The translations under genes were made by a program, and so were the position numbers. The notes beneath the pieces were generated by a model. That model was not told the DNA's origin. It saw only the letters and a program-made list of their open reading frames with translations, and did no database searches. This document shows positions 3,384 through 18,912 of a stretch of 42,973 nt of DNA, in pieces. The stretch is taken from the NCBI GenBank assembly GCA_026417735.1, contig JAOACR010000001.1, forward strand, positions 1-42,973. Direction: 5' to 3'. How positions within the stretch are numbered: position 1 is the first letter of the stretch; every line of letters starts with the position of its first letter. The stretch is from Kiritimatiellia bacterium. Lineage in GTDB: Bacteria > Verrucomicrobiota > Kiritimatiellia > PWTM01.

Positions 3384-4079
3384 TCAGCGGTCGATCGAGA
3401 CGTAACGGACCACGCGCTCGGGCATCCCACAGAAGCGGAAGCTGTTGTTCATGTGGTCCCGCTCATCGAGTGCGATCCGACGAAACACGTCGCCCCAGGT
3501 TTGGAACGGTCCGAACTGCTGGGCCACGTCGCACTCGACCTTTTCCTGATCAAGCTCCGGGTGGTCCTTCACAAACTGCATGTAAGCGTGCTCCGCATGA
3601 TCCTCAAACTCCGCGTTCAGGTAGAACGCGCGGCGGATGTTCACGCGCGCCAGCAGCCGGCTGAACCACGCGTACTTGAACGTGGCGAGCCGCGGCAGCC
3701 AGATCCGTCGAAACGCGCCTTCCTGCATGCCCAGCTGGCGCATTCGATCGTCGATCACCAGGAGATGCCAGAACTCGTTGTCCTGCGCCTCGCGGCCCCA
3801 GTCCACAATTTTCGTGGCCCGCTCCACCGTCGGTCGGTCGTGATGGTGGGTCGACAGCAGGCTGTACTGACGCGTCTCCCAGGCCTGGTACGGGATGCGC
3901 GCAAGGGTTTCGAGCAACCGCACTTTTGGCAGGGAGGTGTCCTTGCCGTAGAGGAGGTCCATCGCCGCAAACAGCATCCTTGCCATCGGCGTGTACTGCA
4001 GACGCGGACGGGCCAGCGAGGCCTCCTGCTCACGCCGGAGATCCACCGGCTCCTTCCGCAAATCGAGCACTGGACTCAT
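3384..4079 (-). CDS. Alternative oxidase / plastid-terminal-oxidase-like di-iron protein
   Basis: A 231-residue protein with the complete di-iron ligand set of the membrane-bound alternative oxidase family, which oxidises quinol and reduces oxygen to water. The expected order is present: LLETLARIPY (Glu57), DNEFWHLL (Glu102 and His105, an ExxH pair), AEFEDHAEHAY (Glu159) and LDERDHM (Glu206 and His209, the second ExxH). LETLARIPYQAWETRQYS resembles plastid terminal oxidases more than mitochondrial enzymes. IWLPRLATFKYAWFSRLL (about 126-143) could be the membrane-interface helix. The ATG at 4079 is preceded by AGAGGAGA at good spacing. It is the last gene of the leftward cofactor run, 32 bases after coaX. 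It is shorter than typical alternative oxidases (about 280 residues or more), so activity is inferred from the ligands, not proven. Confidence 0.8.
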   Translation of the reverse strand: MSPVLDLRKEPVDLRREQEASLARPRLQYTPMARMLFAAMDLLYGKDTSLPKVRLLETLARIPYQAWETRQYSLLSTHHHDRPTVERATKIVDWGREAQDNEFWHLLVIDDRMRQLGMQEGAFRRIWLPRLATFKYAWFSRLLARVNIRRAFYLNAEFEDHAEHAYMQFVKDHPELDQEKVECDVAQQFGPFQTWGDVFRRIALDERDHMNNSFRFCGMPERVVRYVSIDR

Positions 4080-4111
4080 ACCACATCTCCTCTCGCCACG
4101 AGGCGAACCTC

Positions 4112-4951
4112 TCAGCAGACTACACGGGAACCGCGTGAATGCAAGAGCAGGCCGCGCCGGCTGCAGCATTCCGGAGCGCACCGCCGTTCGGCCAGGGCGG
4201 CCAAGCCCCGGAGGGTGAGGTCCGGATCGTGTCGCGCGGACGGAACCGCACGCACCACTAACTTCGCCGCCCCGCCCGTTGCGACGACCCTCGCCCGCCG
4301 CAACCCGCCGTTGCCGCGCATGCGGCAAAGAATCGCCCTGACCATTCCCGCAAACCCCGCTTCGGCTCCGATTCGGATCGCCGACACGGTCCCATCACCC
4401 ACCGAACCGGTCGCCGCCGGCCCCGCCCGAAGGTGCGGAAGTCGCGCGGTCCGCTCGGCGAGGTAGTCGTAGAACATCGCCGGGCCCGGTGCGATCACCC
4501 CGCCAATGTACCGATCGCCGATCACCGCATCGAAGGTGGTGGCAGTGCCGGCATCCACCACGATCACCGCCCCCCCTCCTCGGCGGGCGATCGCGGCGAT
4601 ATTTGCGAGACGGTCCGCTCCCAACGTGGACGGCCGCGGATAGTCGAACCGAACATGACGGGCCAGTGCCGGGCTCGCCGTCAGTGCGACCAGACGACCG
4701 TCCAGCCGAATCGCGCGGCGCCAATCGCGGGTCGCAGCCGGTACGACCGATCCGACCACGATCGACTTCGCCCCCCTGACCGCCAGCCAGCCGACCGCCC
4801 GGGCGAGCACCGCGGGCTCGCGGCGAGCCGTCCGCTGACGCCACCGCCGAAGGACCCGTCCTCCCACGACCAGCGCGAGGGTTGTGTGCGTGTTGCCGAT
4901 GTTCAGAACCGCAACCGGCTCCCCGACCGACCGCTGGCGTGCCACCTTCAT
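4112..4951 (-). CDS. coaX: Type III pantothenate kinase
   Basis: Phosphorylates pantothenate, the first step of coenzyme A synthesis; cytoplasmic, ASKHA fold. Recognisable motifs in order: VLNIGNTHTT (about residues 15-24, the ATP-phosphate loop), STLGADRLANIAA (GxDR motif, pantothenate pocket), VVDAGTATTFDAV (second phosphate loop) and GGVIAPG. The first loop normally reads D-x-GNT; here the Asp is Asn17, a notable change at a conserved acidic position. Length is 279 residues, slightly over the usual 250-260 because of a Cys/Arg-rich tail. The start ATG (4949-4951) overlaps the TGA of the biotin ligase gene as ATGA, which fixes the start and implies translational coupling. The pairing birA-coaX is common in bacteria and supports the identification. 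Confidence 0.9.
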   Translation of the reverse strand: MKVARQRSVGEPVAVLNIGNTHTTLALVVGGRVLRRWRQRTARREPAVLARAVGWLAVRGAKSIVVGSVVPAATRDWRRAIRLDGRLVALTASPALARHVRFDYPRPSTLGADRLANIAAIARRGGGAVIVVDAGTATTFDAVIGDRYIGGVIAPGPAMFYDYLAERTARLPHLRAGPAATGSVGDGTVSAIRIGAEAGFAGMVRAILCRMRGNGGLRRARVVATGGAAKLVVRAVPSARHDPDLTLRGLAALAERRCAPECCSRRGLLLHSRGSRVVC

Positions 4952-8639: not shown

Positions 8640-9869
8640 TCATCCGCCGGTTGCCATCGCGGCGTCGCGCGCACCTCCGCCCGCCGCTTCCAGCACCGCC
8701 GCCGCAACGCCGTCGACCACCGCCGCCAGCGCCGTGTAGTTCAGCTTCTCGGGCAGGTCGTCTGGCTGATGGTATGCGTCATAGCGGAACGGCGCGGTGT
8801 CCGTGACCATCAGCGCGGGCACCCCGCGGCGCGCAAACGGCCAGTGATCAGACCACGCAACGCCCGCTACCCACATCGGTAGCGCGGCCCAGCACACGGG
8901 CACGTCCGTCGCGCATCGCATCGCGGCGGCGAAGCGGCGGAGCGCGCCGGCACTGCGCACACCGCCGACGAGCGCGATGAAGTTGCCACGGTCCGGATAC
9001 AGCAGGTAGAACAACGGTGAGGGATAGGCCTGACTGCCGGGCACGTCGCGAAAACATCCCATCGTTTCCAGCGCAACCATCAGTGCGATCCGTTCACCCC
9101 GACGCACCGCGGCCGCCGCGTGCACCTCGCTGCCCATGTGCGGCGTCATGAAGAACGGCGGCTCCTCGTTCACAAACGCGACCAGTCGCAGCGTGCGGTC
9201 CGGCTCCAGGCTTCGCCACCGCGTCGCCAGTTCAAGCAACGCCGCGACCCCCGACGCGTTGTCGTTGGCGCCGGGCGTGCCGGGCACGGTATCGTAGTGC
9301 GCACCGACCAGCACCAGCTCATCGGGACGCACGCGGCCACGACGCTCCGCCACCAGATTCACTACCGTCACCACACCCTGCCCACTCGGAGCCTCAAAAG
9401 GTTCCTGCCGCACCGGCCAGCCCGCGGTCTGCAATTCGGTCGCGATCCAGCCGGCCGCTTGCCGCAGCGCGTCCAGCCGGCCGTTCGCATGCCGTTCACC
9501 GATTTCGCCGGCCAGCTGTCGCACCCGGCTCTCCAGCCTTGCGGCGGTCGCCTCGCGCGCCGCGGTGAGCGTGGGCGCGTCGGCGGTGCGGCCACCGCAG
9601 CGTGCGACAACCAGACCCATCGCCGCAGCCCAAGGCAGCAACCCGCCCGCCGCACCCGCCGCTCGTTGCAGCCGCGAGCGGCCCTCCGACCGAACGAAAG
9701 TGCGCCAGAACTGGACGGAACCGGCCACCAGCCACAGCGCGAACAATACTGCCGCCACTACCGTTGCGATCCCCCGGACCCCCGCAAGCGGTCCGACACG
9801 GCGATACGGAATCGCCCCCACCACCAGCAGCGCGACCGAGGTCCAGATCGCCAACCGCCAGGTGTTCAC
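8640..9869 (-). CDS. Membrane-anchored M28-family zinc metallopeptidase
   Basis: A 409-residue protein with up to three hydrophobic segments at the N-terminus (about residues 8-22, 33-52 and 74-89), then an aminopeptidase-type M28 domain that probably faces the periplasm. Metal-site motifs in order: LVGAHYDTVPGTPGANDNASG (His and bridging Asp), FVNEEPPFF (catalytic Glu and ligand Glu), WSDHWPFARRGVPAL and YDAYHQPDDLPEKLN (final His ligand). M28 enzymes remove N-terminal residues from peptides, though some act as glutaminyl cyclases or amidohydrolases, so the exact substrate is open. It overlaps the upstream TPR/pseudo-caspase gene by ATGA, showing coupled translation and probable joint function. 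Two CG-rich helices of low complexity precede the catalytic domain. Confidence 0.87.
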   Translation of the reverse strand: MNTWRLAIWTSVALLVVGAIPYRRVGPLAGVRGIATVVAAVLFALWLVAGSVQFWRTFVRSEGRSRLQRAAGAAGGLLPWAAAMGLVVARCGGRTADAPTLTAAREATAARLESRVRQLAGEIGERHANGRLDALRQAAGWIATELQTAGWPVRQEPFEAPSGQGVVTVVNLVAERRGRVRPDELVLVGAHYDTVPGTPGANDNASGVAALLELATRWRSLEPDRTLRLVAFVNEEPPFFMTPHMGSEVHAAAAVRRGERIALMVALETMGCFRDVPGSQAYPSPLFYLLYPDRGNFIALVGGVRSAGALRRFAAAMRCATDVPVCWAALPMWVAGVAWSDHWPFARRGVPALMVTDTAPFRYDAYHQPDDLPEKLNYTALAAVVDGVAAAVLEAAGGGARDAAMATGG

Positions 9870-12499
9870 GGCTGCCGTTCGACGGGTGCCGGACCACGCG
9901 CCCGCCGGGTGCGGTAGTCCATTTCCAATATTTGGATCGCCGCGATATCGGCCGGTATCGTGATCGGGCCGTGTGGCTTCATCGCCTCGTCAAGCACCGC
10001 CCGGACCCGCCGCACCGTGGCGACCAGGTCGCGAGCCAGCTCTGGCGGCAGATCACCGGCCACCGACAATGCCGCCCGCGCGTCGAACAGACGACCGCGA
10101 GCCACAAGCAGCGCCGCCCGCCGCACCGCGATCTCCGCACGCAGCAGTGGATCCGCCTCCGCGCCCCCTGCCGATTCTATCGCGGACCACGCACGGCCAT
10201 ACGCCTCGTCCGCTTCGTCCGCACGACCGGCCATCGCGAGGGCACGGGCCCGCTGAAGCCAGATCCGGGCGAGCGCTCGCGCGGAAAGAGCCCCGCCGAA
10301 CGACTCCCCATACGCCGCAAGGGAGTCTGACGACCGCACCGCCTCCTCCAACGCCCCCGCCTCGATCCAGGCGAGAACCTCCTGCGTCCGCGCGCGCACC
10401 CACTCCGAGCGCGACTCCGGCCCGAGTTCCACCAGGACCGCCGCCGCGTTCGACCACGCGACCGCGGCCTCCGCGTAGCGGTGCAGCCGCATGCGCGCAT
10501 CCGCCAGCAACACCCACACGGCGGACAGCGATGGGCGATTCGTCACTGCGGACCGCGCCCACTCCGCCAGCGCGCGCTCCGCGAATTCCGCGGCGCGCGC
10601 CGCATCACCACTGTTCAGGTGCAGCGCAGCAAGATCCGCATGCAGTGTCGCAAGATCCTGAGCGGCAATCTCCGGGCGTGCCGCGGCCATCCGCCAGGCC
10701 TCCTGCGCGTGCTGCAGCGCACGAATGCGGTCGCCACGCTGGTTCCACGCCCAGGAAAGCAGAATCTGCAGGCGTACCCGCTCCACCTCCTCGACCGATG
10801 TCGCAGCCGCCCCCTCGGCCGCCGCCTGCAGACGACGGATCGCCTCATCGGTCTCGCCTCTCTCGAGCAGCGCACTCCCCAGCGACACCACCACCGACAA
10901 CGGCGGTGCTCCACCGCGCCACACTGACCACTCGTCGCAGGCTGTCCGCCACGCATCAATCGCAGCGTCCAGCTGACCTACTGCAAAGCGGGCGTCGCCC
11001 ATCTCCGCGCAGAGAAGCGGCACTTCCGGGCCAGCCTCGACGGCGGCACGGGCTGCCGCGAGTGCCTCTTCCGCCTGCGCGGCCGCGGCGCCGGGATCGC
11101 CGGCCAGCCGCAACGCGCGCACCAGACGACGTCGCGTCCCCGTAACCAGCGCCGTATCCGCCACCCTGCCGGCCGCGGCGGCATCGGCGGCGATTCGATA
11201 CTGCCGCACCGCCTCCACGAAATCCTGTCTGGCCTCCGCCGACATGCCCAGCACGCGCGCCGCGTGAAACCGCGCCACCGCAGCGGAGGCGCCAGACGCG
11301 TCGGTCTCGCGGAGAACCTCCGTCGCCATACGAACGGCGTCGGTGGGATCCTCCTGTTCCCACCGCACCTCCGCCAGCAGTGCCCGCGCCACCAGTGAGC
11401 GGGGCTCCGCACGAAGAATCGCGCGCAGCTTCTGCTCCGCCTCCTCCCGACGTCCTTGCCGCCAGACGGCCGAGGCCGCCACAACGCGGTCCTCTACCTG
11501 CTCCGCGGTCAGGCCCTCCGGCCGGAGAGCCACCGCAAGCTCCGCGAGCCAGTCCGCCACCCGCGACGCACCCTCCTCCCGAGCCACCCGCCAGGCCGTC
11601 GCCCAAACTTCGGCCGAACCTCTGTCTCCCGGAGCATGCCCCACGACCTCGGCGAGCTGCTCCAGAGCCGATCCGAGCTGGCCGAGCGGCGTCAGCTGCA
11701 GCACGTCGCCCTGCGGCCACGTGACCCCCGCAAGCGCATTAGACGGAGAGAGGCTGCACACCGTTCGGCCGGCGCTTTCCAGCTCGCACCGACGGATCGC
11801 GGCGCGCAACCACTCTCCTACACTGCCGCCCGCCGGGCGGGTCCGAATACGTTCCAGTTCCCGTGCCAGCGCGTCGGCCGCGCGTGAGCGCCCGAACCAT
11901 GTCTCGGCGGGACGCTCCGCCGCACCCGCCGACCACAACACCAGCGGCTCCGGAAACGAAAACGCAGACGCCGCCGGTGCCCCCGCCGCGCGGCCGACGC
12001 CAGCCGCGATCTGGATCACGACCACCGAAGCGGCACACGACCCGAGCAGAGAGCTCACGGCGGCAGGCACCGCCTCCGCCTCGTTTTTCCCCTCCAGTCC
12101 CGCCCAAGCTGCCCCACTTTCACCGTCCGTTGCCGGTGCAAGCGGCCCGCTGTAACCCACCACCGCCAGATCGCCCGTCTGAAGGCGCGCGCGCAGACGA
12201 ATCAGGGCTGCCAGCACCAACTCGGCGCGAACGGTTGCGCCGGTGAGCACCGCCAGGTTCGCGCCGCCGGCGCGCGACCATACGGCCGCCAGATGCGCCG
12301 CGTCGGCTGGGCCGTTCGCGTCGCCGGCGCCAATCCAGACCGCCATCGGCACCGGCGTCCGCGCGAAGGTTTCGGACGCTCCGAGCGCCACCGCGAGCAC
12401 CATCACGGCGACCGCGCGCCCGGCCGTCCAAACGATGGACGGCCATCCCGGCGTCCGGTCCCAACCTTGGACACCTCGAATCCGACGCGGCCGCCTCAT
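9866..12499 (-). CDS. Exported TPR-repeat protein with a degenerate caspase-like (C14-type) N-terminal domain
   Basis: 877 residues. An N-terminal hydrophobic stretch AVAVMVLAVALGASETFA (about 30-47) looks like a signal peptide. Residues about 50-290 follow the layout of caspase/metacaspase-type domains: a first strand PMAVWIGAGDAN, helix DAAHLAAVWSRAGGA, LAVLTGATVRAELVLAALIRL, then GDLAVVGYSGPL, ASVVVIQIAAGVGRA, EPLVLWSAGAAERPAE and a GRSRAADALARELE helix. In active enzymes the YSG segment continues HG (catalytic His) and the later strand carries DxC; here these are Pro119 and Ala165/Ala166, so the domain should be inactive. From about residue 320 to 860 are many Ala-rich helical pairs typical of TPRs. 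Four-base overlaps link it to the dihaem propeller gene upstream and the M28 peptidase downstream. The caspase-fold assignment is my inference from pattern; the TPRs are clear. Confidence 0.72.
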   Translation of the reverse strand: MRRPRRIRGVQGWDRTPGWPSIVWTAGRAVAVMVLAVALGASETFARTPVPMAVWIGAGDANGPADAAHLAAVWSRAGGANLAVLTGATVRAELVLAALIRLRARLQTGDLAVVGYSGPLAPATDGESGAAWAGLEGKNEAEAVPAAVSSLLGSCAASVVVIQIAAGVGRAAGAPAASAFSFPEPLVLWSAGAAERPAETWFGRSRAADALARELERIRTRPAGGSVGEWLRAAIRRCELESAGRTVCSLSPSNALAGVTWPQGDVLQLTPLGQLGSALEQLAEVVGHAPGDRGSAEVWATAWRVAREEGASRVADWLAELAVALRPEGLTAEQVEDRVVAASAVWRQGRREEAEQKLRAILRAEPRSLVARALLAEVRWEQEDPTDAVRMATEVLRETDASGASAAVARFHAARVLGMSAEARQDFVEAVRQYRIAADAAAAGRVADTALVTGTRRRLVRALRLAGDPGAAAAQAEEALAAARAAVEAGPEVPLLCAEMGDARFAVGQLDAAIDAWRTACDEWSVWRGGAPPLSVVVSLGSALLERGETDEAIRRLQAAAEGAAATSVEEVERVRLQILLSWAWNQRGDRIRALQHAQEAWRMAAARPEIAAQDLATLHADLAALHLNSGDAARAAEFAERALAEWARSAVTNRPSLSAVWVLLADARMRLHRYAEAAVAWSNAAAVLVELGPESRSEWVRARTQEVLAWIEAGALEEAVRSSDSLAAYGESFGGALSARALARIWLQRARALAMAGRADEADEAYGRAWSAIESAGGAEADPLLRAEIAVRRAALLVARGRLFDARAALSVAGDLPPELARDLVATVRRVRAVLDEAMKPHGPITIPADIAAIQILEMDYRTRRARGPAPVERQP

Positions 12500-15054
12500 C
12501 GCGCGTATTCCGGCCGCCAGCCGAGCCGCGGCGGCACCAGCTCCCCCTGCCGCTGAGCTTCGGGGTCGTGGTAGGCGCCGTAGAACAGGCTGTTACAGTC
12601 CAACCACGTCACGATCCGCTCCCAGTCCTCCGGCGACAGTCGTACGTCGTGGTGTCCGTTGCTGAGCATCCGCGCGAGGTGGGCGGCATCGGCGCCGACT
12701 CGCCCGGGCGTCGAGTACTGTTCCTGTTCGAAGATGATTCCGTTGCCGCCGGCCCGCGACCAGCCAAACGGCGAGAGCGCAGCGTACGCACGGGACCACC
12801 CATGGTGCGCGTGTCGGACGCCGGCGAGCCACTCGGGCGCAGAGACTCGCGCGCCGGGGCCGGTGGCCGGCTCGAACGGTTCTGCGCGCAGATCGGGGCG
12901 GCCGCGCGCACCGGCATGGCATCGAACACAGTGGCGATCGAGCACCGGTTGGACCAGCCGCGGAAACGTCAACGGATAGGAACCCGACGGTCCGGGCCGC
13001 AGCGAGGAAGGGGGCCGGCGCGCAGCCAGAGGTGAGAACTGAACCGGCGGTGCGGCGTGACGCGGCTCGTGGCAACCGGCACAGCTCAGTGTCGCGCCGT
13101 CGTGCGCCCAGGTGCCGGAGCGCATAGTTTGAATCGCACGGCCGCGGCCGTCCAACGCCTGAAAGTAGACCTCTACGCCGGCGGGCATCACAAAGTGCGC
13201 ACTGCCGTCTTCCTCGACCGGGACGGTGCCGAGCACGCCGCGCGCAATACTTTCGGCAGCGGCCCCGATGCGGGGCACATCGAGCCAGGCGGTGTCCTTT
13301 CCGAAGATCTGCACGATCCGCAGCGCGGCGACGCGCCGGCCGGCGGGAAACGGACGGCGGCTCGCATAGACGTTGGCGACCACCACGGTCGCCAGGCCGG
13401 TCGGGCGCGAGGGTGAGTAACCGACCATCGGAGGTGCGCGGCGCGGAATCACCGGCGGGCGTTCCCTCGGTCGCACCGGTATCGGGTCCAGGCACGGGAA
13501 CTCCGGATCGCGATAGAGCACCTCCCGGTTGCCAAAGCTGTCGGCGAGCGTGAGCGCGTAGTGGCGTTGTTCGGGATCCCATACGCAGAGGAAAAAATCC
13601 TCGTCCAACGGCCACGGCTGGCCAAACACCTCCCCTTTCGGTTCGTGTCGCCCGCGGTCATGCGGCACGCCGGGCGCGGACTCGGCCTCCGGAAACAGCA
13701 CCTCCGGCGTCAGCCGGCGCACCTGAGACATGCGGCCGTCGTCGGGCATCGCCGGATCCACCAACACCACCGAACCGTACTGCTCCCCGTGATGGGGTGC
13801 CGCAACCGCAATGAAGGTGCGCCGGCCGGGTACCGCGCGCAGCCCCAGCAGCATCCACGGCCGCATCTCGCGCCGGTCGGTGTAGTTGCCATGCGGTGCG
13901 CGCGGGTCGCTACCGTCGGGATTGCACACCCACATGTGATGCGCCGCGTCGTTGTCCCGGTCTACGTAGTCCCACCGCGTATAGACGATTCGCCCATCGT
14001 GCGCGACGGACGGCTGCCACTCGTTCGTTTCGTGAAAGCTGAGCGGCTCGAGCGCAGAACCGTCGGGCTGCATCGCATACAGCACCGCGGAGGGACACCA
14101 GCGCGCGCCGCAGCGCACATTCGAGCCCACCCGCTCCGAAATGAACGCGATGCGGCCGTCCGGCAGCACGCACGGGTCGTACTCGTTCCACCGCCCGTCG
14201 GTGAGCTGCATGACCGGCCCACCCTCGAGCGACGCGCGGAAGATATGATAGGTGCTCTCCGGCCGCCAGTGGTAGTGGTGATAGCCGGCGGGCCGCAGAC
14301 GACACTCCTCCCACGACCACGGCTGGCCCGCCCACTCCTCCGGCGAGGGCACGCGCGCGTCCGCTTCGGTCCACGCGAAGTAGACGGTGCGCCCGTCGTA
14401 GTCGAGCTCCAGCGAGATGAACGAACCGCCCGCGAGCGGCCGACCGGTAAGCCGGCCGTTTGCGATCGTCGCCCCCTCGAGCGGGCGGCGCACGCGCGGC
14501 GCCGCTCCGAACGGATCCTCGATCACGACCAGCCCCCCGCCACGCGCTGCGTTGAAGCCGAAAAACTGGTCAATCATATGGATTTCGCCGCGTGCTTGCT
14601 TGGAATGCAGCAGTAGCGCGATGCGATCAAAGTTGAGCAGAGGATTGCGGAAGGCGATCCGGCGACGGAGCGCGCGCGCGGCGAGGAAACGCTCGTCGGC
14701 GCCGTCGGCAGGGAGCGGGCCGTTCGCCGCCCGCGCCTCCAGCGCCGCCAGCTCCGCCGCCTCCGCGGAGAGGTCGGGCGCCCCGGGCTGTGCCCGCAGA
14801 TGTGTCAGCAGCGCGCGCGTCCGACGCAGCACCACGTCGAGCGGAGAGCGGTCGGTTGGCTGGATCAACGCGTCGGTGCGGCGCGATTCACGCTCGAGCC
14901 GCTGGCGCACCTCCGTGTCGAATTTCGTTCCGGCGATCTCGCGCGCCAGCCGTTCGAACTCTTTCCGAGCGTCCTCCCCGTGCACGACCCCCGTCGCGCC
15001 AATCGCGGCAGCGACGCATGCGGCGCGCAACAACAGACGGCCGACGCGCTTCAT
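12496..15054 (-). CDS. Hydrazine-synthase-alpha-like exported protein with beta-propeller region and two c-type haem motifs
   Basis: 852 residues with signal peptide (LLLRAACVAAAIGATGVVHG, cleavage about residue 26). A helical region with predicted polar segments (27-160) is followed by a propeller-like part containing WD40/TolB-type strands such as MQLTDGRWNEYDPCVLPDGR, IAFISERVGSN and NEWQPSVAHDGRIVYTRWDY. The C-terminal part has two haem c attachment motifs, CAGCH (658-662) and CVRCH (709-713). This arrangement matches proteins annotated in many PVC genomes as hydrazine synthase alpha-subunit-like, named after the anammox enzyme; true hydrazine synthase activity is not implied, because the other subunits are absent nearby. 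Function is probably periplasmic redox or substrate sensing. It starts the run of overlapping genes, has a promoter just upstream and overlaps the TPR gene by four bases. Confidence 0.82.
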   Translation of the reverse strand: MKRVGRLLLRAACVAAAIGATGVVHGEDARKEFERLAREIAGTKFDTEVRQRLERESRRTDALIQPTDRSPLDVVLRRTRALLTHLRAQPGAPDLSAEAAELAALEARAANGPLPADGADERFLAARALRRRIAFRNPLLNFDRIALLLHSKQARGEIHMIDQFFGFNAARGGGLVVIEDPFGAAPRVRRPLEGATIANGRLTGRPLAGGSFISLELDYDGRTVYFAWTEADARVPSPEEWAGQPWSWEECRLRPAGYHHYHWRPESTYHIFRASLEGGPVMQLTDGRWNEYDPCVLPDGRIAFISERVGSNVRCGARWCPSAVLYAMQPDGSALEPLSFHETNEWQPSVAHDGRIVYTRWDYVDRDNDAAHHMWVCNPDGSDPRAPHGNYTDRREMRPWMLLGLRAVPGRRTFIAVAAPHHGEQYGSVVLVDPAMPDDGRMSQVRRLTPEVLFPEAESAPGVPHDRGRHEPKGEVFGQPWPLDEDFFLCVWDPEQRHYALTLADSFGNREVLYRDPEFPCLDPIPVRPRERPPVIPRRAPPMVGYSPSRPTGLATVVVANVYASRRPFPAGRRVAALRIVQIFGKDTAWLDVPRIGAAAESIARGVLGTVPVEEDGSAHFVMPAGVEVYFQALDGRGRAIQTMRSGTWAHDGATLSCAGCHEPRHAAPPVQFSPLAARRPPSSLRPGPSGSYPLTFPRLVQPVLDRHCVRCHAGARGRPDLRAEPFEPATGPGARVSAPEWLAGVRHAHHGWSRAYAALSPFGWSRAGGNGIIFEQEQYSTPGRVGADAAHLARMLSNGHHDVRLSPEDWERIVTWLDCNSLFYGAYHDPEAQRQGELVPPRLGWRPEYAR

Positions 15055-15186: not shown

Positions 15187-15768
15187 TCAGGGGGTCGCGG
15201 CACTGCCCTCCAAAATCTCGCGGACCTTGCGCTCGATCATCTCGTCCCGCGCGGCCCGCCGTTGCTCCAGCTCGCGTTTGAGTTTCTGCAGCTCTTTTTC
15301 GATGCGGGCCAGCCGATCCCGCCGCTCCGCTTCACGAAGGTCAAACGCGATGGTGACCAGTCGCCGAATCTCGTTCCGAATCGCGGGCCGCTGCTCAGCC
15401 GCGGCCTCCCGATAGACCCGCGCCAGGCTTTCAATGCGGGCGGCGTACTGCTCTGCGGCGCCGCCGGACGCTCCCGTCATCCGATCGGGAAGACCGCGCG
15501 GCCAGTCCGAAAATCGCCGCCGCACTTCCGCCTCGAATGTCGCCGGGGCCTCCGCGCGCAGACGCACCAGCCGCTCGTACTCGGCGGGACGGCGCTCCCG
15601 AACCCACCCGAGCCAGCGTTCGACCCACTGCGCGTCGGGGGTTGCCGCGCAGCTAGATTCGGCCGCCGGCGCCGCGGCGGCGGGCATCGGGTCCGCGGCC
15701 ACCGGAACGCTGAATCCCCCGGCGACGGCGACGACCAGCACCACCGCGAATGATCCGGCGCGACTCAT
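15187..15768 (-). CDS. Exported alpha-helical/coiled-coil protein in the sigma/anti-sigma operon
   Basis: 193 residues, no family recognised with certainty. A signal peptide FAVVLVVAVAGGFSVPVAADP (about 7-27) predicts export. The rest is charged and helical; the C-terminal 60 residues (AERRDRLARIEKELQKLKRE and onwards) form a clear coiled coil with Arg/Glu-rich heptads. Its start overlaps the anti-sigma gene stop by ATGA. Small helical periplasmic proteins of the Spy/CpxP or heavy-metal-sensor (CnrX-like) kind often sit beside ECF sigma/anti-sigma pairs and tune them, so a sensor or chaperone role is possible, but the sequence alone does not prove it. A strong hairpin follows. Confidence 0.75.
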   Translation of the reverse strand: MSRAGSFAVVLVVAVAGGFSVPVAADPMPAAAAPAAESSCAATPDAQWVERWLGWVRERRPAEYERLVRLRAEAPATFEAEVRRRFSDWPRGLPDRMTGASGGAAEQYAARIESLARVYREAAAEQRPAIRNEIRRLVTIAFDLREAERRDRLARIEKELQKLKRELEQRRAARDEMIERKVREILEGSAATP

Positions 15769-16322
15769 GCGTCAGCGGGCGACTCGTTGAAATCTGTTTC
15801 GTCCTCCCTGGCCTGTGCGGGCTCCGGCGGACGCTCCACCGGACGCTGCAGCTCCCGAGCCAGCGCAGCAGCTTCGTCGCTCAGCAGGTCGAGTTGTAAA
15901 TCCATCCACTCATCCAGCGTCCAGACGCTGGTCGGGGGCGCTGCGGTCGACATCGCGGTCGAACCATTCGGCCGAAAGCTGGCGCGGAGCACCGCGGCAG
16001 TGAATCCAACGAGAAACGCGACGACCATCGCCGCCGCGACCGACCACGCCGGATGTGCCAGCCACCGCGCGCGGGTCGCGTGCGCGCTGACCATGCTGCG
16101 GCGGGTGATCTCGGTGAGAATCGTGTCCGCGGTCACCGCCGACACCACCTCCTCCGCGCGCGCCTCGCTGCGGGCGACGGTCTCGACCCGCGACAGCGTG
16201 TCACGATACGCGCGGCAGGAGGCGCACCGCTCCAGATGCGCAGTCAGCGAAGGCCGCCGCACCGGTTCCAGCTCGCCGCTGGAGTCCAGCAGGATGTCGC
16301 GAATCGCCTCGTCGCACTTCAT
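15765..16322 (-). CDS. Zinc-finger anti-sigma factor, single-pass membrane protein
   Basis: 185 residues. The N-terminal part has the zinc-binding anti-sigma (ZAS) signature HLERCASC, His29-xxx-Cys33-xx-Cys36, followed by a helix. A hydrophobic stretch AWSVAAAMVVAFLVGFTAAVL (about residues 92-112) anchors it in the inner membrane, leaving a C-terminal periplasmic part of about 70 residues rich in Glu and Arg. Such proteins hold their cognate ECF sigma factor inactive until an envelope signal arrives. It overlaps the sigma gene by four bases upstream (16319-16322) and the exported helical protein downstream, forming a compact signalling operon. Confidence 0.9.
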   Translation of the reverse strand: MKCDEAIRDILLDSSGELEPVRRPSLTAHLERCASCRAYRDTLSRVETVARSEARAEEVVSAVTADTILTEITRRSMVSAHATRARWLAHPAWSVAAAMVVAFLVGFTAAVLRASFRPNGSTAMSTAAPPTSVWTLDEWMDLQLDLLSDEAAALARELQRPVERPPEPAQAREDETDFNESPADA

Positions 16323-16909
16323 GTCATTCTCCCCCCGAAGGCCTCGTATTCATCTTTCAGCGCCTCGCGCAGCTTCAACACCGCGTAGTGCATCCGCGCC
16401 AGCGCAGTATTCAGTGTGACGCCCTGAATGCGGGCGATCTCCTTGAACGGAACCTCGCCCTCCGTCCGCAGCAGAAACACCTCGCGCTGCTCGGGCGGCA
16501 GTTTCAGGATCGCTGCCCGGATGCGCTCCCCCAGGTCCGCACCCGCCACCCGTGTTGCGGGCCCGATCCCGCTCTCCGGCACGCGCTGCAGCCAGCTGCT
16601 GCGCGCCTGCGTGCTGCTGGCCGCGCTTTCCGCATCCACGAACAGCTTCCGGCGCCGCGCCAGGTCAATGATCAGGTTGTGCGCGATCCGGAAGAGCCAC
16701 CCCAGAAGGTTTTCCTCCCGAAAGGTGTCCAGTTTCCGGATCGCACGGATCCAGACCTCCTGAAAAATCTCGTCCGGATCCACCCGGCCCTCGGTCATCT
16801 TGAGAATGAACGAATAGAGCGGCCGGCGGTAATGCTCGACCAGCTTCCCCAGGGCTTCACGGTCACCCCGGCGATACTCGTCGAGCCACGCGCGTTCCTG
16901 AGCGTCCAT
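16319..16909 (-). CDS. ECF-type RNA polymerase sigma factor
   Basis: 196 residues. Sigma region 2: LDEYRRGDREALGKLVEHYR, FILKMTEGRVDPDEIFQEVW and WLFRIAHNLIIDLARRRK (the -10-recognising part, about residues 20-90). Region 4: RIRAAILKLPPEQREVFLLR and IARIQGVTLNTALARMHYAV with its helix-turn-helix (about 130-180), where VTLNTALARMHYAVLKLRE recognises the -35. ECF factors direct transcription of envelope-stress or metal-response genes. I chose ATG 16909 (MDAQERAWLDEY), which matches the usual N-terminal length; the frame is open to 17305 but those residues look like non-coding translation and cross the divergent gene. It is paired with the anti-sigma gene by a four-base overlap. Confidence 0.93.
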   Translation of the reverse strand: MDAQERAWLDEYRRGDREALGKLVEHYRRPLYSFILKMTEGRVDPDEIFQEVWIRAIRKLDTFREENLLGWLFRIAHNLIIDLARRRKLFVDAESAASSTQARSSWLQRVPESGIGPATRVAGADLGERIRAAILKLPPEQREVFLLRTEGEVPFKEIARIQGVTLNTALARMHYAVLKLREALKDEYEAFGGRMT

Positions 16910-16940
16910 CCGGTCCGTCCAGGGACCGCTCCGAACTACG

Positions 16941-16946
16941 CTTATA
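16941..16946 (-). promoter_or_regulatory. Possible -10 box for the ECF sigma operon
   Basis: TATAAG on the minus strand, 31 bases before the sigma ATG. No good -35 partner is seen; ATATTC lies 17 bases upstream. Weak evidence. Confidence 0.25.
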
Positions 16947-17084
16947 GAACGGAGGATCCCGCTGAATATTGCGCCGCTGCCGGCACAAAAGACTGCCACA
17001 TGCCGCCCCGCCGGCCAACTCGCCGCCCCGCGCCGAGCCCCGACTCCGCCGGCGGGTGGCTGGACCACTGCCTCGGCGGACTGA

Positions 17085-17090
17085 TATAGT
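17085..17090 (+). promoter_or_regulatory. -10 box of the MarR-TolC/RND operon
   Basis: TATAGT lies seven bases before the ATG at 17098, so the transcript would be leaderless. A poor -35 candidate TGGACC (17061-17066) is 18 bases upstream. The box adjoins and slightly overlaps the palindrome at 17089-17109, as expected for a repressor-controlled promoter. Confidence 0.45.
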
Positions 17091-17109
17091 TCACAAAATG
17101 AAACATTTT
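17089..17109. promoter_or_regulatory. Candidate MarR operator overlapping the start codon
   Basis: Two overlapping inverted repeats: GTTCA (17089-17093) with TGAAAC (17099-17104), and AAAATG-AAA-CATTTT (17095-17109, perfect 6-base arms). They cover the start codon of the MarR-TolC gene. The 10-mer ACAAAATGAA (17093-17102) also occurs in the GbsR-type operator at 1772-1781. Autorepression by the MarR domain encoded here is inferred. Confidence 0.5.
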
Positions 17110-18912
17110 TCTCCGCAATCCCCGTCGCGCTCGATCGCGAAGTTCTGCGACGCGCTGGGGCATGTGCTGACGCTGCTCGCCCGCCTCGCGGTGAGCCGCG
17201 AGCGCCATGCGCTCGCGCGCGGCCGGCTGACGATGCCGCAAATGTGCCTGCTGGACCACTGCGCCAGCGTGGGCCCTTGCACGATGGGCGAGATCGCCGC
17301 GGCATTTCGACTTCGGCGTTCCACGCTCACTCAGATCGTGGACCGCCTCGCCGAACGCGGCCTGGTGACGCGGCGCCGCGCAAGCTGCGACCGCCGGCGG
17401 GTGCTGGTCCAAATGACGCCCGCCGGCCGCCGCCTGGTCCGAAGTTTCCGGCTCGAACGACGACGAACCCTGCGTGCGCTGTTCGCGGAGGTGCCGCACG
17501 CGCAGCGGCGTGTCTTCCTCCGGATTCTTGAGCATGCGGCCGACGCGTTCAGCGCCGGTACGCCCCCCCGCGCTGTCGCCAAAGCCCGTCGCGCCACGAC
17601 AGTCGTGTTCGCGCTCGCCGCGGTCACCCGCGCCGGCGAGGTCGCCGCCCTCCGCCGACTCACGCTCGACGACTGTCTGCGCAGCGGACTCGAACGCAGC
17701 GTCGCGGTCGCCAACGCGGAGCGCGACCGCCTCGCCGCCAGCGCGATGATCGCCGAAATGCGGGCACCCCTGCTGCCCGAGCTGCACACGCGCGCGGACT
17801 ACACCCGCCGGAATGAGCTCGACACGCTCGAACTGGATGGCCCGCCGGTGACATTTGGCCGGCTGGATAACTACACCGCCGCCGTCGAGCTGCGGCAGCT
17901 CCTCTACGACGGTGGCAGCGTCGCAGCGGGGCTGAAGGCGGCGCGCGTGTACCGCGACCGCGTAGACCTGGCGTCGGAACGCGTCCGCGAGACGCTCGCA
18001 CGCGACATTCACCTCGCTTTCCACGCCCTCTGGTACCTCGAGGAGGCGGTCCGCGTGCAGACGGCGACGATCGTGCAGCTCGACGAGTTCGCCAATGAAA
18101 TCGAGCACAAGCACCGGGAGGGGGTCGCCTCCGAGTTTGACGCGATGGCGGCCCGCGTGCGCGCCGCGAACGAGCGGCCCACGTTGGCCGCACTCGAGCG
18201 CGAACGGTGCGTCGCCCGTGCTGCGTTCCGCAACCTCGCCCGGCTCGAGACCGATCAGTTCGAACTCGCCGGAGAGGGCGTCATCTCCGAGCGAACCGCG
18301 GACCTCACCGAGCTGGAAACCGCGGTGCGGATCGCCCTGCAGCAACGCCACGAACTGCATGAGCAGCAAAAACTCGTGGAGCTGCGCGCGACGGATCTGC
18401 GTGTTGAACGTGGCGCGTACTCACCCGTGCTGCGGGCCCGCGGCAGCTACGAGGGACGCAACCCCGAGACGTTCATCTCGTCCGAGGACCGCTGGGAGTG
18501 GGACTGGCAGGTGGGTCTGACGGTGGAGTGGAGCCTCTACGACGGCGGTCGGCGCGCCGCGCGTATCCAGCAGAAGGAGCTGGCGCTCGCGTCCGCCCAG
18601 GCCGAACTGGAGGAGCTCCAGCGGCGGATCCGGCTGGAAGTTGAGGAGGCGTGGATGCGGCGCCGTGAGGCGGCGCAGGCGAACGAGGCGGCGGAGCAGA
18701 CGGTGCGGCTGGCGGACCGCAGCGTCGAGATCGCGCATACGCGCGTCCAGACGGGGCTTGCGACCCGCCTCGAGTTCACCGACGCAATGCTCGCGCAGCG
18801 CCGCGCCCGGCTCCAGCTGCTGGGAGCCCGCCGCGATCTGCGCAGCGCGGACGTGCGGCTCGCCTACGCGATCGGCCGGTCGCTGCTGCCCCGTGGGGAG
18901 ACCACTCGATGA
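17098..18912 (+). CDS. In-frame fusion of a MarR regulator domain with a TolC-family outer-membrane efflux protein
   Basis: One uninterrupted frame of 604 residues. Residues 1 to about 155 are a complete MarR domain: helices, then TMGEIAAAFRLRRSTLTQIV (helix-turn-helix), DRLAERGLVTRRR and the wing DRRRVLVQMTPAGRRLV. At about 160-185 comes KARRATTVVFALAAVTRAGE, which resembles a signal peptide, and then LTLDDCLRSGLERS, the classical mature start of TolC-type proteins, followed by two long coiled-coil helical repeats (VGLTVEWSLYDGGRR marks the second half). TolC-type proteins form the outer-membrane exit duct of RND pumps; MarR proteins repress such operons. A cytoplasmic DNA-binding domain ahead of an export signal is topologically odd. 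No ATG lies between the parts; weak GTG codons (17491, 17605) could be internal starts. A seven-C run near 17567 makes a sequencing error or recent gene fusion worth excluding. Confidence 0.8.
   Translation: MKHFSPQSPSRSIAKFCDALGHVLTLLARLAVSRERHALARGRLTMPQMCLLDHCASVGPCTMGEIAAAFRLRRSTLTQIVDRLAERGLVTRRRASCDRRRVLVQMTPAGRRLVRSFRLERRRTLRALFAEVPHAQRRVFLRILEHAADAFSAGTPPRAVAKARRATTVVFALAAVTRAGEVAALRRLTLDDCLRSGLERSVAVANAERDRLAASAMIAEMRAPLLPELHTRADYTRRNELDTLELDGPPVTFGRLDNYTAAVELRQLLYDGGSVAAGLKAARVYRDRVDLASERVRETLARDIHLAFHALWYLEEAVRVQTATIVQLDEFANEIEHKHREGVASEFDAMAARVRAANERPTLAALERERCVARAAFRNLARLETDQFELAGEGVISERTADLTELETAVRIALQQRHELHEQQKLVELRATDLRVERGAYSPVLRARGSYEGRNPETFISSEDRWEWDWQVGLTVEWSLYDGGRRAARIQQKELALASAQAELEELQRRIRLEVEEAWMRRREAAQANEAAEQTVRLADRSVEIAHTRVQTGLATRLEFTDAMLAQRRARLQLLGARRDLRSADVRLAYAIGRSLLPRGETTR

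Follow-up and report, generated by a model that had tools for sequence, protein, structure and literature searches.

The caspase-fold and repeat protein

The window, by which we mean the whole stretch of 42,973 nucleotides analysed here (Kiritimatiellia bacterium, GenBank assembly GCA_026417735.1, contig JAOACR010000001.1), carries on its minus strand, at 9866..12499, a gene that encodes a protein of 877 amino acids in one uninterrupted reading frame. The protein joins a caspase-like domain, in which both catalytic residues are lost, to a long array of tetratricopeptide repeats (TPRs), and its gene begins on the stop codon of a gene for a dihaem propeller protein related to the alpha subunit of hydrazine synthase (HZS). 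An earlier sequence-only reading had described a degenerate caspase-type domain over the first 290 residues, followed by a long TPR array, in an exported protein that might belong to a signalling or assembly module at the envelope; that observation is confirmed here, and its interpretation is partly supported, with the caspase fold, the lost catalytic pair, the TPR array and the tight coupling to a dihaem propeller all upheld and no support emerging for a signalling role.

Residues 1-46 (12362..12499, minus strand) resemble a signal peptide by hydropathy, with a hydrophobic stretch near residues 29-43, and from this N-terminus the protein is probably exported to the periplasm, a reading weakened by an equally hydrophobic stretch inside a strand of the caspase-fold domain itself. 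The domain, placed by profile, model and structural comparisons, occupies residues about 50-251 (11747..12352), so that the fold proposed by the sequence-only reading stands while its extent does not: what follows, up to residue 330, is poorly conserved linker. In the orthologue comparison this linker (residues 252-331; 11507..11746) is the least conserved part of the protein, and beyond it lies the TPR superhelix, residues 332-840 (9980..11506). Tandem TPR hairpins are found there both by Pfam (TPR_12, 3.6e-8; TPR_2, 8.4e-7) and in the full-length model, which has 12-13 helical hairpins over residues about 332-840 with a predicted local distance difference test score (pLDDT) mostly of 80-97. 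The C-terminal tail (9869..9979) contains a PHGP motif (842-845) that is invariant in the four orthologues aligned. Beyond TPR-type matches, Pfam and NCBIfam returned nothing notable on the protein, and PADLOC returned no match. Within its own genome the protein is present as a single full copy, the only paralogous signal found being a weak 71-residue match. In one orthologue (G006; L009 9043-9194), the greater part of the hydrophobic N-terminal stretch comes from a 21-base minisatellite of 7.2 copies with 90% matches.

Four kinds of comparison, namely a blind profile search, profile-profile alignment, Foldseek and structural alignment, agree that residues about 50-251 have the C14 caspase fold, as modelled. 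In the blind search, a profile of the four orthologue domains was run against 288 genomes of the class and gave 22 matches, 18 of them outside the family of the window's genome. Eight of these 18 are C14 caspases with both His and Cys, PF00656 being confirmed on six, and the other two (L023 and L025) being 86% identical to a third locus, L019; relatives bearing the active-site residues therefore exist. The remaining ten are not caspases, and since these include the two best E-values (L017 and L018, rejected as chance frames), the E-values of this search are not to be trusted. What does discriminate is coverage: all eight matches that span the first half of the domain up to the SGP turn are C14 domains.

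Profile-profile alignment with hhalign against two C14 sets from the class gave probabilities of 96.0% and 96.9% over some 200 residues, values that are partly circular because the sets were taken from the blind search. A set of 24 C14 domains, selected with PF00656 after leaving out six that overlapped or resembled the blind-search set, gave 96.3% with a score of 66, as against 11.7 for the reversed control. With gappy columns removed, the best of 100 column-shuffled controls scored 18.0 against a real score of 82.5; an initial shuffle in which one of 100 scored 132 proved to be a four-column alignment artefact that vanished with those columns. In the opposite direction, a profile of the eight C14 domains matches the orthologues of G006 (1.4e-10) and G001 (8.3e-6), and the G002 orthologue is unmatched. 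Homology of a p20-like domain to C14 is indicated, then, by the hhalign probabilities of 96-97% and the blind C14 matches, not by PF00656.

The structural comparisons point the same way. A model of residues 45-301 (pLDDT 70, predicted template modelling score 0.78) has the strand/helix order E-H-E-H-E-H-E-E-H-H-E, which is that of caspases, and Foldseek gives its top six places to caspases or the MALT1 paracaspase (E 2.7e-4 to 6.5e-4), so that the check proposed with the earlier reading returned a caspase fold and not an unrelated one. VIA-align superposes the model on procaspase-7 with Z 16.2 and a root-mean-square deviation of 3.0 over 186 residues, where for models that match nothing clearly the tool quotes Z values of 7-8 as usual; sequence identity to caspases is about 10-17%. 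A last strand is modelled at residues 247-251 in the full-length model, where any p10 part was viewed together with the rest of the domain. When the domain profile was searched against PDB sequences, the top match was GSU0716 (3bij), which we take to be a Geobacter caspase homologue; it aligned at the SGP/SGH strand with E = 0.4, a value that is not significant alone.

Loss of the catalytic dyad and conservation of the domain

The positions of the dyad were examined in six MAFFT alignments (three modes by two C14 sets). In all six, the column of the catalytic His holds Pro (“SGP”) in all four full-length orthologues, the residue concerned in the window being Pro119 (codon 12143..12145, minus strand), as had been read from the sequence. 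The D-x-C site of C14 caspases corresponds to the end of strand 4, residues 159-167 (VVVIQIAAG; 11999..12025), where none of the four has a Cys. The register at this site is uncertain, and what the six runs place in the Cys column of the four sequences is Ala, Gly, Leu, His, Pro or a gap, but never Cys; the earlier claim that the Cys position is Ala thus survives as a loss of Cys, and not as Ala specifically. The acidic residue that precedes the catalytic Cys is also lost. Invariant in the four domains are SGP, GD, ELER (in the L211-R217 region) and RR. By comparison, PF00656 matched 47 of the 288 genomes of the class, and in the 30 loci fetched and read both catalytic residues are always present, with D-x-C in 30/30, [AS]GH[GA] by pattern in 27/30 and SSHG in the other 3/30; at 1e-5, none of the nine genomes of the window's own family matches PF00656. 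Judged from these alignments, the domain is probably proteolytically dead, its catalytic His replaced by Pro and its catalytic Cys gone: it lacks the His-Cys dyad of an active C14 peptidase and shows the dyad replacement that marks a bacterial pseudo-orthocaspase.

The protein has a narrow distribution. In a survey of 58 genomes, comprising the window's own and relatives, matches were found in five: the window's own, G001 (52% identical), G002 (37%), G006 (33%) and G003 (31%, C-terminal half only), of which G001, G002 and G003 belong to the window's genus and G006 to its family. A scan of contigs found nothing with a single-protein query and two relatives with an alignment query, and profile searches of the 288 class genomes and 387 phylum genomes brought up no other such domain. 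Among the genomes searched, the pseudo-caspase-TPR protein is found in one bacterial family only. The G003 match is a fragment that may reflect misassembly or a true loss; there, two frames (L010 10422-11672 and 11549-13507, both minus) place the TPR half in overlap with a polynucleotide phosphorylase (PNPase)-like frame that seemingly ends early.

Where intact, the domain is better conserved than the rest of the protein. Identities for domain, TPR array and linker are 60%, 51% and 32% between the window and G001, 0.39, 0.36 and 0.26 for G002, and 0.38, 0.29 and 0.18 for G006; the domain exceeds the TPR array in all four pairs compared, the fourth giving 0.39 versus 0.33. Within the domain, codon positions 1 and 2 change less than position 3, and in the closest pair differences amount to 0.23 at position 2 versus 0.58 at position 3. 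By these sequence measures the domain is under purifying selection and is the most constrained part of the protein, and since it is the best conserved, the dead domain appears to be maintained and not to be decaying.

Neighbouring genes and a proposed role

The gene immediately upstream (12496..15054, minus strand) encodes the HZS-alpha-like (HzsA-like) propeller protein, 852 amino acids long, with a signal-like start, a match to PF18582 (2.4e-19) and two CxxCH motifs at 658 and 709. Against the NCBIfam model for true HZS alpha it scores 30.7 bits, short of the cut-off of 800. Its stop codon overlaps the pseudo-caspase start as ATGA (12496..12499), and the same RTGA arrangement is found in all four full-length orthologues (ATGA in three, GTGA in one). 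Close relatives of the propeller protein occur in G001 (84% identical) and G006 (70%). Propellers of this kind are multi-copy, with 40 of 146 class genomes matching and up to 10 matches in each; the window's genome has seven matches, and such genes lie on its contigs C3, C7 and C24 as well as at 12496-15054 of the window.

On the other side, an M28 peptidase gene (8640..9869, minus strand; PF04389, 3e-28) overlaps the pseudo-caspase stop codon as GTGA. Both couplings were as described in the sequence-only reading, and it is only as a fixed partner that M28 falls away: it adjoins in two of the four, the window's genome and G001, and the orthologue-bearing stretches of G002 and G006 yielded no M28 relative. 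Upstream of the propeller gene (15187..17305, minus strand) lie genes for an extracytoplasmic function (ECF) sigma factor, a zf-HC2-like anti-sigma candidate and a small signal-peptide-like protein, in the same order in G001 and matched only there among the relatives searched; G002 is uninformative on these genes because its contig begins inside the propeller gene. The small protein (15187-15768), between the anti-sigma candidate and the propeller gene, begins with a signal-like segment, ends in a charged helical tail and belongs to no Pfam family above cut-off. Two further frames of the window may be mentioned. At 16969-18912 (plus strand) a MarR repressor domain (residues 87-145) and a TolC-like outer-membrane efflux protein (OEP) share a single frame, an odd pairing of a DNA-binding domain with an outer-membrane channel that is found also in G001 (L007 15487-17451, plus strand) and could be either a genuine fusion or two genes lying in one frame. 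At 3384-4328 (minus strand), a frame of 314 amino acids with a His- and acidic-rich second half has no Pfam match at 1e-5, and a G001 frame (L007 1678-2652) ends like it, as judged by eye.

With confidence that is evenly balanced, we read the pseudo-caspase as a non-catalytic, co-translated partner of the HzsA-like propeller, acting in its assembly, stability or regulation. The stop/start overlap persists in four genomes although roughly half of the residues, or more, differ between their copies, which suggests co-production at a fixed ratio. Outside the family, 11 stretches around HzsA-like genes yielded no relative of the pseudo-caspase, which therefore has the look of an addition made to a single cytochrome in this lineage. 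TPR superhelices bind proteins, and a dead caspase fold retains its peptide groove. The pseudo-caspase would be made directly after, and coupled to, the dihaem propeller protein; its TPR superhelix would hold a protein, the caspase-fold groove would offer a second surface for binding or folding, and the cytochrome would be helped to assemble, to stay stable or to be regulated. In a more elaborate and rather doubtful version, the caspase fold would have been recruited as a periplasmic factor dedicated to maturing or regulating a c-type HZS-alpha-like cytochrome. Its dead peptide groove, capped by the fixed SGP turn, would bind a segment of the co-translated partner while the TPR superhelix holds the rest.

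Several points weigh against the partner reading. PF00656 matches none of the four orthologue domains and nothing in the window's genome; the model of residues 45-301 was built from three sequences, with a mean pLDDT of 70; and physical contact with the cytochrome is read from gene order. Because partnerless HzsA-like genes are common, the pseudo-caspase is not generally required for such proteins. Finally, G003 (68% complete) has only the fragment of the TPR half, preceded by the PNPase frame in place of an HzsA-like gene.

Of the other explanations, the one that survives best, though we think it unlikely, is a stress or cell-fate pseudo-caspase like that proposed for SyOC, sensing damage through its TPRs and sharing no more than expression with the HzsA-like gene. 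A bacterial pseudo-orthocaspase has been linked to oxidative stress (PMC7889975), and both the window's genome and G001 have an ECF sigma/anti-sigma pair upstream; yet that pair was matched in G001 alone among the relatives searched whereas the overlap with the cytochrome gene holds in all four, and the protein looks exported. Less probable again is a proteolysis module in which the dead domain binds substrates and hands them to the M28 peptidase: it would account for the GTGA overlap and for the M28 gene adjoining in G001, but not for the G002 and G006 stretches. That the domain might still be an enzyme, using the same groove for another mechanism or substrate, is suggested by its conservation, the highest in the protein, with SGP, GD, ELER and RR invariant, and is made very unlikely by an old Cys site where neither Cys nor Ser nor His is conserved as a nucleophile and the preceding acidic residue is lost. 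An equally slim chance attaches to caspase likeness by convergence, or to membership of the CHAT branch instead of C14. The PF00656 result and the low identity to caspases would fit this, but the C14 profile alignment is full-length with reversed and shuffled controls far below it, and PF12770 (CHAT) does not match the domain and has no hit in the sampled genomes of the family, the CHAT search having found only two proteins in 77 genomes and the profile comparisons of the domain having covered C14 sets only. A decaying relic kept through fusion to a useful TPR array, which the lost catalytic residues and single full copy might suggest, is the least credible, the domain being intact in four genomes and better conserved than the array. 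A co-translated partner of the propeller remains our preferred reading.

Comparison with known systems

Proteins of this general kind have precedents. Prokaryotic caspase homologues that have lost the dyad are known: 84% of bacterial metacaspases retain it, and TPRs are among the domains most commonly added (PMC3501461). According to Klemencic et al. 2019 (PMC6426788), Rhizobiales pseudo-orthocaspases of the Phe-Ser class consistently carry TPRs C-terminal to the domain, and pseudo-orthocaspases, mainly of Alphaproteobacteria and Cyanobacteria, commonly have the dyads YS, YA, FS, QC and HA. The likeness to the window protein lies in the p20-like domain, the replaced His-Cys dyad and, in that class, the C-terminal TPRs; the window protein differs in having Pro for His, in lacking a PF00656 match, in looking exported and in the overlap of its gene with that of a dihaem propeller. 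SyOC of Synechocystis is likewise a dead bacterial caspase homologue with a role in vivo, its deletion giving higher tolerance of oxidative stress; that role is cyanobacterial, and the abstract mentions neither a TPR array nor a cytochrome partner (PMC7889975). The C14 orthocaspases of the same class (L019-L023, L025, L029 and L030; 30 PF00656 loci) share domain order and fold at the profile level, and differ in keeping their catalytic motifs in every locus read. GSU0716, the best PDB sequence match, also keeps its His.

The propeller neighbour shares with hydrazine synthase alpha the HZS_alpha middle domain and has two CxxCH motifs, its score for true HZS alpha being far below the cut-off as given above. 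Distant homologues of HZS subunits without key residues are reported from other bacteria, and haem-binding periplasmic proteins are the presumed ancestors of the HZS complex (PMC12758564). A role for the pseudo-caspase here would be the first functional hint for one branch of HZS-alpha-like proteins, which are many in these genomes, and the fixed gene overlap, which links this dead caspase with a specific haem protein, provides a testable partner. Dead bacterial caspases may also be undercounted, because they are counted by sequence models and the window protein is invisible to PF00656. No description of this pseudo-caspase-TPR protein was found in the literature searched, most subscription journals lying outside it. 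Overall, we judge the kind to be already known, and the window protein to be a divergent pseudo-orthocaspase with a new dyad replacement and a defined genetic partner.

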